Of a DNA stretch of 64,000 nucleotides, positions 39,246 to 46,678 are shown in pieces. Each line of letters starts with the position of its first letter. Position 1 is the stretch's first letter. The DNA is from Candidatus Lutacidiplasma silvani. GTDB taxonomy: Archaea; Thermoplasmatota; Thermoplasmata; Lutacidiplasmatales; UBA184. The translations under genes were made by a program, and so were the position numbers. The notes beneath the pieces are model-generated. The model did not search any database, was not told the DNA's origin, and saw only the letters and a list, made by a program, of their open reading frames with translations. The stretch covers positions 1 through 64,000 of the forward strand of contig JAKIVZ010000009.1 in NCBI GenBank assembly GCA_022750295.1. The letters are read 5' to 3'.

Positions 39246-40592
39246 TTAGGGGCGGGGAGCCGAATCGTCCGGGCCGGTCGGCCGGGAATCCCCGGCCGCC
39301 GCGTCGTGATTCGGGGGCCCGCCGCTTCGCACCCCCGGGGAGCGGGCCCAAATGTCCCGGTACACCGCTTCTCCCCGCTCCGTGAACCGGTAGACCCGGA
39401 GTCGTCGGGGTTGGCCCGAAACATGCCGGACGTCGTGGACCAGAACCCCGGCCGCCACGAGGCGGCGCAACACGTTCGTCACGGAATTCTGACCGATCCC
39501 GAGGCTGGCGGCGATGCCGCCTTGCGTGAGGCCGTTGGGGCCGACGTCGTCGGGAGCCAGTCGTCCCTGCGAACCAATGTGGAGGATGACCCTCTGCGTG
39601 AGCTGCAGTCGACCCGCATCGGCCGCTCGCCCTCGGCGCCCCGACGGCGGCCCGACGGGTTCGGTGCTGGCGGGGCCGGCGGCCACGGGAGCTCCATCGG
39701 GCGCGCCGGAACGTTCCGCGGAGAGGGAAGCGGGAGGCGTGGATGAGACGCCGTTCGGAGGTAGGCGCCCCGAGCCGCCCGGATCGACCCCGGCTGGCAC
39801 CGGACCTCGGACGCCCCACCCGAACCGGGCGACGAGCGAGACCGCCACGAGCGCGATCCCGGCGCCGGCAAGGGCGGCGATCGCGAGCACGACCCACCCC
39901 CCGAACACCGAGGCGGCCGCGGTCGACGGAGCCCGAACCGGCACGGGTACGGAACCGACGGCCCAGTGGCCCGCCGAGTCGGTGACGTTCACCCTCGCGG
40001 TGAACGTTCCGGCATGCGAGTACGTGTAATTGACCGGGACGCCCGAGCCGACGCCGCCGTCGCCGAACGCCCAGAACACGCTGACGTAGGTCCCGCTCCC
40101 GCCGGAGATGCTCGCCGAGAACGTGACGGTGAGAGGGACCGACCCCGAGGTCGGGGTCGCCGCGACGGTCACCACGAGCGGTCCCGGGGTCGTGATGACC
40201 GTCACGTTCCCGGTCGCGTTGCACGCCGGCTCGACGACCGTGACCGTTGCGTCGAACGACCCCGGCTCGGCGTACCGATGGAGCGGGTCGGACGCGCCGG
40301 GGGCGGAACTATTCCAGTAGCTTCCGTCCCCGAACGCCCAGTCGTACGCGGAGGGCGTCCCCGAAGTGGGGGTCGCATTCAGCTTCACTTCGAGCGGCGC
40401 GGTGCCGGTGGCCGGCGTCGCCGAGACCCCGACGGTGAATCCACAGGCGTCGGTGTGGGCCGCACTCCCGCCGGGGAGGTTTGCGAGAACGACGACGGCG
40501 AGGGCGATCGTCGCGACGCCGAGAGCGCCCCGTCGGGACGGCCCGGCCGGCCTGGGACGGACGACGGTCGAGCGAAGGGGGCGAGGAGTCAC
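39246..40592 (-). CDS. Membrane-anchored PKD-domain protein with C-terminal cytoplasmic winged-helix domain
   Basis: Signal/TM, two PKD domains (YDWAFGDGS, FWAFGDGG), TM GGWVVLAIAALAGAGIALVAVSLVARFG, then LTQRVILHIGSQGRLAPDDVGPNGLTQGGIAASLGIGQNSVTNVLRRLVAAGVLVHDVRHVSGQPRRLRVYRFTERGEAVYRDIW; GTG start overlaps upstream stop. Confidence 0.82.
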   Translation of the reverse strand: MTPRPLRSTVVRPRPAGPSRRGALGVATIALAVVVLANLPGGSAAHTDACGFTVGVSATPATGTAPLEVKLNATPTSGTPSAYDWAFGDGSYWNSSAPGASDPLHRYAEPGSFDATVTVVEPACNATGNVTVITTPGPLVVTVAATPTSGSVPLTVTFSASISGGSGTYVSVFWAFGDGGVGSGVPVNYTYSHAGTFTARVNVTDSAGHWAVGSVPVPVRAPSTAAASVFGGWVVLAIAALAGAGIALVAVSLVARFGWGVRGPVPAGVDPGGSGRLPPNGVSSTPPASLSAERSGAPDGAPVAAGPASTEPVGPPSGRRGRAADAGRLQLTQRVILHIGSQGRLAPDDVGPNGLTQGGIAASLGIGQNSVTNVLRRLVAAGVLVHDVRHVSGQPRRLRVYRFTERGEAVYRDIWARSPGVRSGGPPNHDAAAGDSRPTGPDDSAPRP

Positions 40593-41560
40593 GGGGCCGG
40601 TTGCCGGGGCGGGCGACCCCGCGGGTCGCGCTCGAGCTCGGCGATCAACGCGTTGCCTTCCTTTCGGAGTCGACGTGTCTGCAGGAGTCGCACGAGGAGC
40701 CCGACCGCGATGGCGGCCACCGCGAACGTCGCCCCCAGTTCGATCCACGACGGGCCGCCGGAGGTTCCCGGGAGCCCCGGGCCGCGCGCCGGCGGCGCGG
40801 CGACCGTGATCGGACCGAGGACCTGGGTGGTCCGGTGCCCGGCCCCATCGGTGACGGTGAGGGTCGGCGTGAACGTTCCCGCGGCCTGGTACACGTGGAC
40901 GACCGGGACCCCCGGCAGCTCGGATCCGGAACTCCCATCGCCGAACGCCCACTGCAGGGTAATCGGCGGGGTGCCACCGGCCACGCTTTCGTTGAACGTG
41001 ACGGAGAGGGGGGCCGTGCCGGAGGTGGTCCGCTCGTACGCCGTGGCCGAGAGCGACGATTGGGGTGTCACGACGATCAAGGCCGTCGAGCCTTCGCCGG
41101 CGCCCCGACTATCGGTGACGACCCCGGTGACGCTGTAGTTCCCGGGCGTGCGATAGAGCTGCTGGAAGTAGCGAGCCGACGTCCCGTTCCACTCGGACGC
41201 GCCGACTCCGCAATCTGGGGCCGGAGTCTGGTGGTCGACGGTCCCGAAGCACACGGAGAGATGGTACGGCGCTTCCCCCCCCGCGACGGCGACGCTGAGA
41301 TTCACGAGGAGCGGGGCGCTGCCGGATTCCGGGCTCGGGACAAGGGTCAGGACGGGGGCGTCGGTCGCCGACCGGAGTTCGCTGGACTCGGGCGACCCGG
41401 GGGCGGTCGGTGCGGCGATCGGGGCCGCGGCCAGGAGGAAGAGGAGGGTCACGGCCAGCAACCTGGCCGCGAGCCACGGAAGGGGTTGTGGGATTCGGGC
41501 GTCGGATCCGAGGCCCCACACGGGGCGCCGCGGCTGGGGTCCGCCTCCCGCGGGGGACAT
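40589..41560 (-). CDS. Secreted PKD-domain protein with C-terminal TM
   Basis: TLQWAFGDGSSGSELPGVPVVHVYQAAGTFTPTLTVTDGAGH; TM IELGATFAVAAIAVGLLVRLL. Confidence 0.8.
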   Translation of the reverse strand: MSPAGGGPQPRRPVWGLGSDARIPQPLPWLAARLLAVTLLFLLAAAPIAAPTAPGSPESSELRSATDAPVLTLVPSPESGSAPLLVNLSVAVAGGEAPYHLSVCFGTVDHQTPAPDCGVGASEWNGTSARYFQQLYRTPGNYSVTGVVTDSRGAGEGSTALIVVTPQSSLSATAYERTTSGTAPLSVTFNESVAGGTPPITLQWAFGDGSSGSELPGVPVVHVYQAAGTFTPTLTVTDGAGHRTTQVLGPITVAAPPARGPGLPGTSGGPSWIELGATFAVAAIAVGLLVRLLQTRRLRKEGNALIAELERDPRGRPPRQPAP

Positions 41561-41570
41561 CGGAGCGCCC

Positions 41571-43226
41571 TCAGGCCTCGCCGCGCGTTCCCGACCTTCG
41601 GGGCGCGAGGACCCGTCGGCGGCCGAGGAAGAATCCCGCGGTCGCCCCCACGATGGCTCCCACGACGGCAGCCGCGACGACCAACCCCTCGGCATCCCTC
41701 GTCCCGAGCGCGCCGGACGCGGGACCGTGACCGGCGATCGGGGTGAGTCCCGAAGAATTGCCGGTTCCGTTCCCCGAGCCGTTGCCGGATCCGTTCCCGC
41801 CGGTCCCGTTGGTCCCCGAAACGTACAGCCAGACGCTCCCGTAGCCGACCAGCACCGAGCCCCACGTCGAGGTCGTGTTGTAGACGAACGCCGTCGCCGG
41901 GAACCATCCGGAGTTCGCGTAGGTGACCGAGACCATCAGCCCGCTTGGCGAACCCGTCGCGTTGCTCCCGGGGAGGCTCCACGTCACCGCGAACGGGGCG
42001 CTCCCGCCGTTGATGTACGCCGAGAGGGTGGTCGCCAACGGAGCGTTCCCCGTGACGGGGGACGCACCGACCGTCACGGAGACCGACGACGGGAAGCTCC
42101 CGGAGGTGTTGGAGCCGCCACCGAGGAATGCGACCACGAGCGGAGTCTGCACGTTGGCGGCGAGCGGCCAGGGACCAACGACCTGCACGGTCACCGTGTA
42201 ATTCCCGGGGGTGGTGTAGAGGTCGCCCGCCGAGAAGACGCCCGAAGTTCCGTTCCAGGCGACGGAGCCGTTCCACGCGGAGTTCCCGAACGAGACGAAG
42301 GCGTACTGCGGTTGAGCGACCGCGGTCACGGTCGCGTTCAGCTCCGCCGAGGCGTTCTGCGAGGTGGGGAAGAGCCGGAGGGTCGCGTTCACGGCGAGCG
42401 AGCCGTCCCAGGCGAGCATCTGGATCACCGTGGAGTTGGGTCCCAGCTGGAGGACCGTCACGGTCGAACCGGCGCTGGTGTTTCCGGTGCCGTTCCCGCC
42501 GGATCCGTTCCCGGAGGAGTTGGCGAACGCGATGGGCAGGGTGGCGTTCACCATCGCCGAAACGCTCCCTTCCGTGACGCGGATCGCCACCGTGCAGTTC
42601 CCTTGGCTGGAGATCGTCGTGGACGTCCCGAACGCCACCGCACCCGCGATCCAGTAGCTCTGGTTCCAGGCGGCCCCGTTGCCGAACCCGACCCAGGCCC
42701 GACTGGAATTGGTCGCGAGGTCGAACGTTCCCGAAACGTTGACCGAAGCCGAAGCCGAGCCGTCCCGGAGCACCGCCGTGGCATTGATGGCCAGGGCGCC
42801 GTTCCACCCGAGGAGCAGCACCGACTCGAACGTCGTGTTCTGAGCCAGGACCGTGACCTGAGAGCCGGAGCCCGAGATTCCGCCGGAGCCGTTTCCGCTC
42901 CCGTTCCCCGAGCCGGTGCCAGAGCCGTTCCCGGATCCGTTTCCCGACCCGGAGCCGTTGCCGGACACACCGCCGGACCCGGAGCTGTTGCCCGAACCGT
43001 TCCCGGAACTATTGCCGGCGGGGAGCAGCAGGGTCCGCGCGCCCCCGTCGTTTGCCCGCAGCGGGGAGAGCGGCGTGAGACCGACGGTCAGGGACGGGAC
43101 GAGTACCAAGACCCCAACGGCCAGGACCGCAAGGATCGCGCCCCAGCGACCCCGCGAGGACAGGGGGGCGGATTCGGACGGGTTCGTTCGACGCGGGCCG
43201 GTTCCGGGCGGCGGTCCGGGCTGCAT
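41571..43226 (-). CDS. Surface protein with sequon-rich (NGSG)n linkers and C-terminal TM
   Basis: Signal/TM; NSSGNGSGNSSGSGGVSGNGSGSGNGSGNGSGTGSGNGSGNGSGG; C-terminal TM VVAAAVVGAIVGATAGFFLG. Confidence 0.8.
   Translation of the reverse strand: MQPGPPPGTGPRRTNPSESAPLSSRGRWGAILAVLAVGVLVLVPSLTVGLTPLSPLRANDGGARTLLLPAGNSSGNGSGNSSGSGGVSGNGSGSGNGSGNGSGTGSGNGSGNGSGGISGSGSQVTVLAQNTTFESVLLLGWNGALAINATAVLRDGSASASVNVSGTFDLATNSSRAWVGFGNGAAWNQSYWIAGAVAFGTSTTISSQGNCTVAIRVTEGSVSAMVNATLPIAFANSSGNGSGGNGTGNTSAGSTVTVLQLGPNSTVIQMLAWDGSLAVNATLRLFPTSQNASAELNATVTAVAQPQYAFVSFGNSAWNGSVAWNGTSGVFSAGDLYTTPGNYTVTVQVVGPWPLAANVQTPLVVAFLGGGSNTSGSFPSSVSVTVGASPVTGNAPLATTLSAYINGGSAPFAVTWSLPGSNATGSPSGLMVSVTYANSGWFPATAFVYNTTSTWGSVLVGYGSVWLYVSGTNGTGGNGSGNGSGNGTGNSSGLTPIAGHGPASGALGTRDAEGLVVAAAVVGAIVGATAGFFLGRRRVLAPRRSGTRGEA
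42885..43015 (-). repeat. Short-period repeat encoding (N-G/S-S/T-G)n sequon linker
   Basis: Degenerate CCGTTCCC(G/C) type hexameric units; smaller patches near 42478-42525 and 41757-41815. Confidence 0.6.
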
Positions 43227-43452
43227 GCGGGATTCGGGTGCGTCCGGGCCTTATAAGGGACGGTCAAAGATACGACGAAGAGACGACCGGCCGAGGCGTT
43301 TCTCCGTCGTTCCGGCCGAGACGAGCCCGCCCCGAAGGTCGCCGCGAACCGGAGCCATCGAACCGCGGACATCGGCCCCTTCCATCGAAGCTGGCTGAAG
43401 CCGTCTCGGGCATCGTCCCGCAACCTTTCAACCTTCGGCACGTAGCCGTGGC

Positions 43453-45277: not shown

Positions 45278-46678
45278 ATGCAGCGGAACGGACGAACAAT
45301 GGGAACGTGGGCGACGCTCGGCGTGGTCGCGGCGATGGTGCTGGTGATCCCGGCCCTCGCGGCGACCGCCTCGGCCGCCCCCGCCGCCGCTGCCGGCCCG
45401 GCGACCGCCGCGAGCGCGTCGACGAGCCAGCAGTGGGCGTACGGCGGACAGAAATGGGTGAACATCTCGGCGCAGATCGGGAACGCGACGTACCAGTCGC
45501 ACGCGTTCTTCGGTTGGCAAGTGGTGTACACCGCGACCAACACGAGCGCGGGCACGGTCGAGCTGGAGGCGCAGCGCACGATGGGCGCGGACCTCTTCGC
45601 CCAGTACAACGGCTCGCGGATCGTCGGGAACCTCTCGGTGCAGGGCCATGAGTCCGAAACCGGGTTCGCGAACCTGAGCACGACCGCCCAGGTCTACGAG
45701 AACGGGTCCGCCGTCAGTGCGGTCGGGATCGACAACGCCTCCTCCCAGGGGGCCGCGAACCTGACCGAGTCGTACTCGCTGAGCGCCGGCGGCAAGACGG
45801 CGTCGGGTCACCTGGATGTCCAGGGGAACTCGCACAGCGCCGTCTCGTTCTCGCCGTCGTTCGGGCTCGTTCCGTGGAACGTGACCCCGGGCCAGTCGTG
45901 GAACTCGTCGGCGACCTACACCGCCGACGCCGCGTGGTCACTCGCCTACCAGTGGAGCAACACCGGCCTCTTCGGGTTCAACTCGAGCGGGTCTGGTAGC
46001 CCCAACGGCAGCGTCACCGGCACCGGCTCGGTCGCCCTCAGCGGCACCGACCTCGGCACGGTCACGCTCGCGAACGGCCGGACGGTCCCCGTGATCGCGA
46101 TTGCGCTCACCGGTCCGTTCGATGACGTGGACGGGTTCATCCTGGTGCCCCACGGCTTCGAGATCTTCGACGGCGGCGCCCACGCCTGGGGCTCGGGCGC
46201 CCTCGGGACCGAAGCCGTCGCCACCGACCGGCTCGACCTCGCCATCGACGCCCCGCACCACTCGATCGAGGTCGTCGCCTCGGCGACGAGCTATTCGGGC
46301 CAGGACAACACGCTCGCCTCGAGCGGGACCTTGACGACGGCGAACCAGGAGGCGGCTCCCGCCCCCTCGAGCGCGGTCGTCCAGGGCCAGCCCGAGTCGG
46401 TCGCGGACGCGCAGCACAACGCGGCGTGCCTCGCGGGCGGCTGCGGAAGCGGCGGCGCCAGCGGCGCGGCGAGCTCGATCCTGGTGGTCGGGCTGGTCGT
46501 CGGCCTGGTCGCGGTCTTGATCGTCGGGACGGTCGGCGTGGTCGAGTACCGCGCCTGGTCCCGGCGGAAGTCCGGCGGCCACCTCGTCGGCGGCTACAGC
46601 CAGCAGGTCACGTCCAGCCAGGGGCTCCCGCCCCCGCAGGGACCGACCCCTCCGAGCCCCCCGACCGGCGGAGCATAG
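45278..46678 (+). CDS. Secreted protein with C-terminal TM anchor
   Basis: Signal peptide, beta-rich sequon-containing region, TM ILVVGLVVGLVAVLIVGTVGVV. Confidence 0.7.
   Translation: MQRNGRTMGTWATLGVVAAMVLVIPALAATASAAPAAAAGPATAASASTSQQWAYGGQKWVNISAQIGNATYQSHAFFGWQVVYTATNTSAGTVELEAQRTMGADLFAQYNGSRIVGNLSVQGHESETGFANLSTTAQVYENGSAVSAVGIDNASSQGAANLTESYSLSAGGKTASGHLDVQGNSHSAVSFSPSFGLVPWNVTPGQSWNSSATYTADAAWSLAYQWSNTGLFGFNSSGSGSPNGSVTGTGSVALSGTDLGTVTLANGRTVPVIAIALTGPFDDVDGFILVPHGFEIFDGGAHAWGSGALGTEAVATDRLDLAIDAPHHSIEVVASATSYSGQDNTLASSGTLTTANQEAAPAPSSAVVQGQPESVADAQHNAACLAGGCGSGGASGAASSILVVGLVVGLVAVLIVGTVGVVEYRAWSRRKSGGHLVGGYSQQVTSSQGLPPPQGPTPPSPPTGGA

Follow-up and report, generated by a model that had tools for sequence, protein, structure and literature searches.

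We conclude, with a probability that we would put at roughly two in three, that the last gene of a three-gene operon in Candidatus Lutacidiplasma silvani encodes a membrane-anchored transcription regulator of the co-component type, which is paired with the surface protein of the preceding gene, acts on a YGTATCY box through its winged helix and regulates its own operon. The operon lies on the minus strand of the window, the whole stretch of 64,000 nucleotides (nt) that was analysed, and its genes are called genes 1, 2 and 3 in reading order (Table 1). The topology of the regulator, its pairing with gene 2, a motif in the cytoplasmic tail of gene 2 and the promoter box are shown by comparing sequences among related loci; from these we infer the binding of the box by the winged helix, the contact between the tail and the winged helix-turn-helix (wHTH) domain, the signal and the direction of regulation. 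The original prediction for this locus had described a one-component system, in which gene 3 couples the upstream surface proteins to transcription. There is strong support for a coupling to a surface partner, with gene 2 as the general partner and gene 1 present in a single subclade only. The one-component part has been replaced by a conserved two-protein pair, consisting of a tail-bearing surface protein and a transmembrane (TM) wHTH protein, and we rejected it because the conserved partner has a motif-bearing cytoplasmic tail.

The wHTH domain is C-terminal in 63 of the related loci (numbered with the prefix L). These comprise 39 PKD-TM-wHTH proteins (class A), 20 short TM-wHTH proteins that have no ectodomain (class B), and four proteins (class C) that unite Kelch/PKD, TM and wHTH in one chain, of which three are complete while a contig end truncates the fourth. 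Next to 55 of the 58 evaluable regulators of classes A and B lies a gene for a large surface protein that has one C-terminal TM segment and an ectodomain of PKD, Kelch or NHL type. This gene lies upstream on the same strand, overlapping or close, in 54 of the 58 cases, and downstream in one (L117). At this latter locus (L117:3356-8334; G292:C115) the order is swapped, so that a Kelch/PKD partner with the tail motif intact follows the regulator; upstream, an open reading frame (ORF) resembling the HIT family separates the regulator from another PKD gene, which has a YGTATC box. The partners of class B regulators have Kelch or NHL/YNCE propellers together with PKD domains.

The cytoplasmic tail of gene 2 is basic and 30 residues long, and the partner tails share a motif with the consensus RLRREGExLVREL, of which gene 2 has the version RLRKEGNALIAEL. 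The motif was scored with a 13-residue matrix under five-fold cross-validation, taking the 99th percentile of shuffled tails as the cut-off and, as controls, 28 tails from gene 1-type proteins or from PKD surface proteins other than the partners. This cut-off was exceeded by 44 of the 55 partner tails and by none of the 28 control tails. A matrix trained on class A recognised class B and vice versa (p=2e-8 and 2e-9), and 18 of the 19 partners of the ectodomain-less class B regulators keep the motif. The helical moment of the tails was 0.54, compared with 0.34 for shuffled tails, and peaked at 100 degrees per residue. In addition, distances between tails correlated with distances between wHTH domains (Mantel r 0.23; 5 of 5000 permutations). 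The three complete one-chain fusions (L074, L168 and L172) lack the motif, as would be expected if it serves a contact between two chains.

Gene 3 is not a chance ORF, since the full-length protein aligns to nine relatives at 31-51% identity. Its predicted layout of a signal or TM segment, two PKD domains, a TM segment, a low-complexity linker and a C-terminal winged helix was borne out by Pfam and by an AlphaFold2 model built on a 10-sequence alignment. In this model the PKD regions (residues 54-135 and 140-220) form beta-sandwiches and the wHTH domain (322-417) mostly has a predicted local distance difference test score (pLDDT) above 90; folded alone, the domain reached a mean pLDDT of 92. 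Pfam PKD_4 matched two stretches in gene 2 (E=5e-17) and two in gene 3 (5.8e-22), and the PKD cut-offs (PF18911/PF00801) were passed with 78 and 72.6 bits against 27 and 23.5. For the wHTH domain, the best Foldseek matches in PDB were MarR/PadR proteins, including the SlyA-DNA, RovA-DNA and MepR-DNA complexes and PadR, with a probability of about 1.0 and template-modelling scores of 0.5-0.65, which agrees with the MarR/PadR superfamily fold of a wHTH with flanking helices. These matches come from a domain-only search that replaced the full-length one, in which PKD/Ig folds dominated and which was uninformative on the wHTH. A profile against PDB matched Rv3488 (E=6e-6) and also SlyA. The MarR family relation that the original prediction had proposed to check with hidden Markov models (HMMs) is thus found by structure and profile, and in Pfam only below threshold: MarR_2 (PF12802) gave 8.5e-4 and 19.9 bits for gene 3 against a cut-off of 27, and neither the MarR_2 range of 19.9-23.3 bits nor the PadR (PF03551) range of 14.4-18 bits reached the gathering cut-off of 27. 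For this domain, every Pfam model tested stayed below its cut-off, and no NCBIfam cut-off was approached. The recognition helix and wing are conserved, with Q33, G35, R53, H66, V67, R72, R73, Y77 and G83 invariant in 20 sequences.

Two properties of the 39 PKD-type relatives bear on the orientation of gene 3. In all 39, the 15 residues after the second TM segment (TM2) are richer in lysine and arginine than the 15 before it. Furthermore, their ectodomains contain 214 sequons where 63 were expected from shuffling, and their C-terminal parts contain 9 where 13.8 were expected. From the charge bias on the inner flank of TM2 and the sequon distribution, the winged helix is predicted to be cytoplasmic rather than extracytoplasmic, and thus on the opposite side of the membrane from the PKD domains, as had been proposed.

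All four members of the window clade have the sequence TCGTCGT 14 nt ahead of the TATA box, and the rest of the intergenic DNA is dissimilar. A strict TATA pattern placed few operon starts, and a comparison with control genes was used instead for the family-wide form of the box, YGTATCY. It occurs near the start of 21 of 46 operons, as against 6 of 178 control genes taken from these loci (p=6e-12), and in 14 of 35 operons after clustering at 75% identity (p=2e-8). Three permuted patterns were not enriched, and the box was found in none of 21 other PKD surface genes. Combined with a TATA-like element at the right distance, it was present in 16 of the 46 operons and in one of the 178 control genes, this single match being the PKD gene of L117 that precedes the regulator by two genes. 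The element also occurs in L069, from a low-GC genome that belongs to another family of the order (GCGTATCTTTACAATCATTATTTAAAG). In the genome of the window, GTATC-N9-14-TTATA has a single occurrence, at this operon, so that the simplest target is the operon itself; where near-matches to the window box at other places in this genome were read, no TATA box followed them. The strict pattern GTATCT-N7-13-TTATA had four matches in the whole genomes of 14 relatives, two at system operons and two elsewhere, and since the reversed control also gave two we claim no wider regulon. Taken together, the dozens of relatives compared suggest that each pair of surface protein and regulator controls its own promoter. 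At L141, the upstream region contains a perfect palindrome, CGATACAC-N7-8-GTGTATCG, and after this inverted repeat a second GTGTATC stands ahead of a TTTAAAA TATA box, possibly a dimer operator.

In the mechanism that we propose, genes 2 and 3 would both expose PKD domains outside the cell, and engagement, assembly or abundance of the surface protein would change the state of the partner. The cytoplasmic tail helix of the partner would then act on the tethered winged helix or on its dimerisation, the winged helix would bind the YGTATCY box that precedes TATA in the promoter of its own operon, and the surface proteins would thereby adjust their own expression. The tether is long and disordered, which makes a rigid signal through the regulator's own TM2 unlikely, and as class B regulators lack any part outside the cell, their signal should come from the partner. 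Being the conserved element on the partner's inner side, the tail helix is our candidate for the part that acts on the winged helix. The box lies about 17-20 nt upstream of TATA, a position that resembles that of the ArnR boxes discussed below and suggests that the regulator activates; repression is the alternative.

Several observations count against such a self-regulating pair. Approximately half of the operons, including the other two systems in the window's genome (L076 and L077), have no box in the region examined. Three regulators (L134, L145 and L147) have no evident partner; two of these, the PKD-TM-wHTH proteins of L145 and L147 (G070 and G273), form their own clade. In about ten partners the tail motif is missing (L068, L069, L070, L076, L119, L122, L141, L149, L151, L169 and the L130 type). 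Relatedness inflates the simple counts, and as the tail test was unclustered, only the between-class training addresses kinship there. Finally, the Foldseek E-values for the wHTH domain were only about 1e-3 despite the good probability.

The same proteins might instead operate by regulated proteolysis, where surface engagement leads to a cut in the linker and the winged helix is freed into the cytoplasm. The linker (residues 258-321) is indeed proline-rich and disordered, with a length and sequence that vary among relatives, but its alignment contains no conserved cleavage-like segment and cleavage alone does not explain the conserved partner tail, and we regard this route as unlikely. We are equally doubtful that some other, shared transcription factor recognises the box while the membrane winged helix controls other genes or only senses. 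Such a division would suit the presence of the box in only about half of the operons, and the binding of the box by the winged helix is our own deduction; yet almost no other promoters contain the box, the 21 other PKD surface genes have none, and the box tracks the regulator into another family of the order (L069). It seems improbable that the winged helix serves in transertion, as a DNA anchor that tethers its own operon to the membrane while large surface proteins are inserted during synthesis: a box that is unique in the genome and sits at the promoter of this operon, and the co-encoding of partner and regulator, would fit this, but the fixed distance from box to TATA fits transcription control and the partner tail motif would be left without a role. 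The idea that ordinary surface proteins and a degenerate regulator are neighbours by chance, without functional link, which the large number of PKD surface proteins in these genomes might bring to mind, was rejected as hardly credible in view of the 55 pairings among 58 regulators, the natural fusions, the exclusive tail motif and the conserved winged-helix residues.

The proposed self-regulating pair of genes 2 and 3 most closely recalls the co-component systems described in enteric bacteria, VtrA/VtrC, ToxR/ToxS and TcpP/TcpH (Kinch et al. 2022, PMC9214523). As in those systems, adjacent and often overlapping genes encode a membrane-tethered wHTH factor and a membrane-anchored partner that is exposed outside the cytoplasm, and the gene for a membrane or exported partner adjoins gene 3 within the operon. 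In the enteric systems, however, the wHTH domain is N-terminal, the partner gene is usually downstream and the sensor is lipocalin-like, whereas here a wHTH domain of MarR/PadR type is C-terminal, the partner is normally upstream, the ectodomains are of PKD/Kelch type, the tether is long and disordered, a cytoplasmic helix is conserved in the partner and the system belongs to an archaeon. Gene 3 has neither an N-terminal wHTH domain of OmpR/ToxR type nor a C-terminal periplasmic alpha-beta domain, and in place of a lipocalin-like partner there is PKD in gene 2 and Kelch, NHL or PKD in other partners. The best matches in Pfam, NCBIfam, PDB and Foldseek included no ToxR/OmpR winged-helix family. 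The ToxR-type layout of the original prediction therefore holds as a similarity in principle, and homology to ToxR was rejected because the wHTH domain is at the other end of the protein, the partner is different and no homology is detectable.

Gene 3 also agrees with the structural definition of the transmembrane transcription regulators (TTRs), at least one TM segment and a DNA-binding domain in one protein, the latter being predicted cytoplasmic here; TTRs are a census class and not a family, and the main text of the census mentions neither PKD nor Thermoplasma (Demey et al. 2023, PMC10269533). ArnR and ArnR1 of Sulfolobus are likewise archaeal membrane-bound regulators of surface structures, with boxes (TCGAC-N5-GTCGA; fragment -43 to -84) just upstream of the B recognition element and TATA, but they have an N-terminal HTH, HAMP-like and sensor domains and two C-terminal TM segments, and a co-encoded surface partner with a tail motif is not described for them (PMC6396743). 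Homology to ArnR was rejected, as the domain order of gene 3 is the reverse. The MarR/PadR proteins SlyA, MepR and Rv3488 have the same fold as the C-terminal domain of gene 3 and are soluble homodimers, while that domain is tethered and falls below every Pfam cut-off tested. Its closest sequence relatives outside the system (E about 1e-17 to 1e-20) are wHTH-STAND NTPase proteins from other families of Thermoplasmata, which are soluble and have the wHTH domain N-terminal, several with AAA/NB-ARC and TPR following, in contrast to the membrane-bound gene 3 with its C-terminal domain. A literature search turned up no account of membrane winged helices that have PKD or Kelch surface proteins as partners in Thermoplasmata, and absence from the collection searched is no proof. 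The pair thus fits known structural kinds, the TTRs and the co-component layout, and is itself apparently undescribed.

Strong matches to the wHTH profile came from the window's family and from a single genome (G038) belonging to a different family of this order. Of the 47 genomes of the genus with a completeness of at least 80%, 24 have between one and eight copies, and the window's genome has three. A scan of genome contigs returned five loci, of which only L058 (G007:C40, from a Thermoplasmata metagenome-assembled genome) is a true relative. At 16 loci found in other Thermoplasmata families (L152-L167; up to 14 matches per genome) a related wHTH domain is N-terminal in soluble proteins, several with a STAND NTPase (AAA_16/NB-ARC) and some with TPR, in a MalT-like layout. 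The window clade consists of the window, L063, L120 and L123 (support 100/99), and all four have kept the gene trio, whose conservation had been raised as a check. Because class B is a single clade nested in class A and class C is nearest the STAND outgroup, an evolutionary path from a fused receptor through a split pair to loss of the ectodomain appears plausible, with a weak root and a short domain. Many relatives' gene starts were chosen by hand, and many loci come from fragmented assemblies. We think it quite possible, though short of probable, that the order holds an undescribed class of self-addressed receptors, in which a PKD/Kelch/NHL protein signals through its tail helix to its own tethered wHTH on a YGTATCY box, in one-chain, two-chain and ectodomain-less forms and with up to eight wHTH copies per genome. 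The natural one-chain proteins with a Kelch and PKD ectodomain, TM segment, linker and wHTH domain are found at L074:1086-3605, L168:3638-6244 and L172:5838-8741. At G256:C10:35928-36191 a wHTH match lies within an open frame of 2298 residues, possibly a giant fused receptor-regulator.

Archaeal signalling from the surface to transcription is hardly known beyond two-component systems and ArnR, and the surface proteins of Thermoplasmata mostly lack assigned roles. If our reading is right, it would add a new archaeal route for information from surface to DNA and assign a function to dozens of large surface proteins of PKD/Kelch type, as modular receptors with widely variable ectodomains and conserved inner parts. 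The unit of receptor, regulator and operator is compact and includes a conserved tail helix for coupling as well as a promoter box to match, which makes control of a membrane-bound transcription factor by an external protein testable with short peptides and a 30-bp promoter.

Table 1. Features of the operon and its promoter (positions in the window)
Feature	Position	Strand	Description and basis
Promoter box TCGTCGTATCTTTG, candidate gene 3 operator	43265..43278	-	TCGTCGT in subclade, YGTATCY family-wide; unique in genome
TATA box CTTATAAG	43250..43257	-	~31 nt upstream of gene 1 ATG; transcript predicted nearly leaderless
Gene 1	41571-43226	-	551 residues, ATG start; Gly/Ser/Asn-rich, sequon-rich surface protein with C-terminal TM
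Gene 2	40589-41560	-	323 residues, ATG start; partner surface protein with 2 PKD, C-terminal TM and cytoplasmic tail
Gene 2 C-terminal TM	40682..40738	-	Hydropathy
Gene 2 cytoplasmic tail motif RLRKEGNALIAEL, amphipathic helix	40634..40672	-	Cross-validated motif; helical moment peak at 100 degrees
Gene 3	39246-40592	-	448 residues, GTG start; transmembrane wHTH regulator
Gene 3 TM1/signal anchor	40482..40535	-	Residues 20-37; AlphaFold2 helix, hydropathy 2.05, K/R-rich N-terminus
Gene 3 PKD domain 1	40188..40433	-	Residues 54-135; Pfam PKD, AlphaFold2, Foldseek matches to ColG PKD
Gene 3 PKD domain 2	39933..40175	-	Residues 140-220; Pfam PKD, AlphaFold2, Foldseek matches to ColG PKD
Gene 3 TM2	39822..39893	-	Residues 234-257; AlphaFold2 helix, hydropathy 2.54
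Gene 3 Pro-rich disordered cytoplasmic linker	39630..39821	-	Residues 258-321; pLDDT <50 nearly throughout, length variable in relatives
Gene 3 MarR/PadR-like winged helix	39342..39629	-	Residues 322-417; AlphaFold2, Foldseek, profile against PDB

The window has a GC content of 69.3% and belongs to a genome of 2.1 Mb in 29 contigs; the published description of the soil order Lutacidiplasmatales gives about 69% GC and about 2.1 Mb (PMC9287336). The ORF coordinates agree with the predicted three minus-strand genes, with 10 nt between the stop of gene 1 and the start of gene 2 and a 4-nt overlap (GTGA) between genes 2 and 3. The flanking genes read as unrelated ORFs on the opposite strand, and the operon therefore appears to stand alone. 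Gene 1 contains 34 N-x-S/T sequons, where shuffling gave 9.3 on average and 17 at most. Pfam found no PKD domain in it, and one PKD-like stretch was detected by the family HMM only, which corrects the label of sequon-rich/PKD surface proteins as regards gene 1. Gene 1 is confined to the window subclade, with a similar low-complexity ORF in L066 (L066:5495-6736), the first one upstream of the pair there, which is built of long acidic SGNDSGDHDGDSG repeats. A few kb from the operon, on the opposite strand of the window (45278-46678, plus), lies one more gene for a sequon-rich protein, which appears to be secreted and has a C-terminal TM segment.

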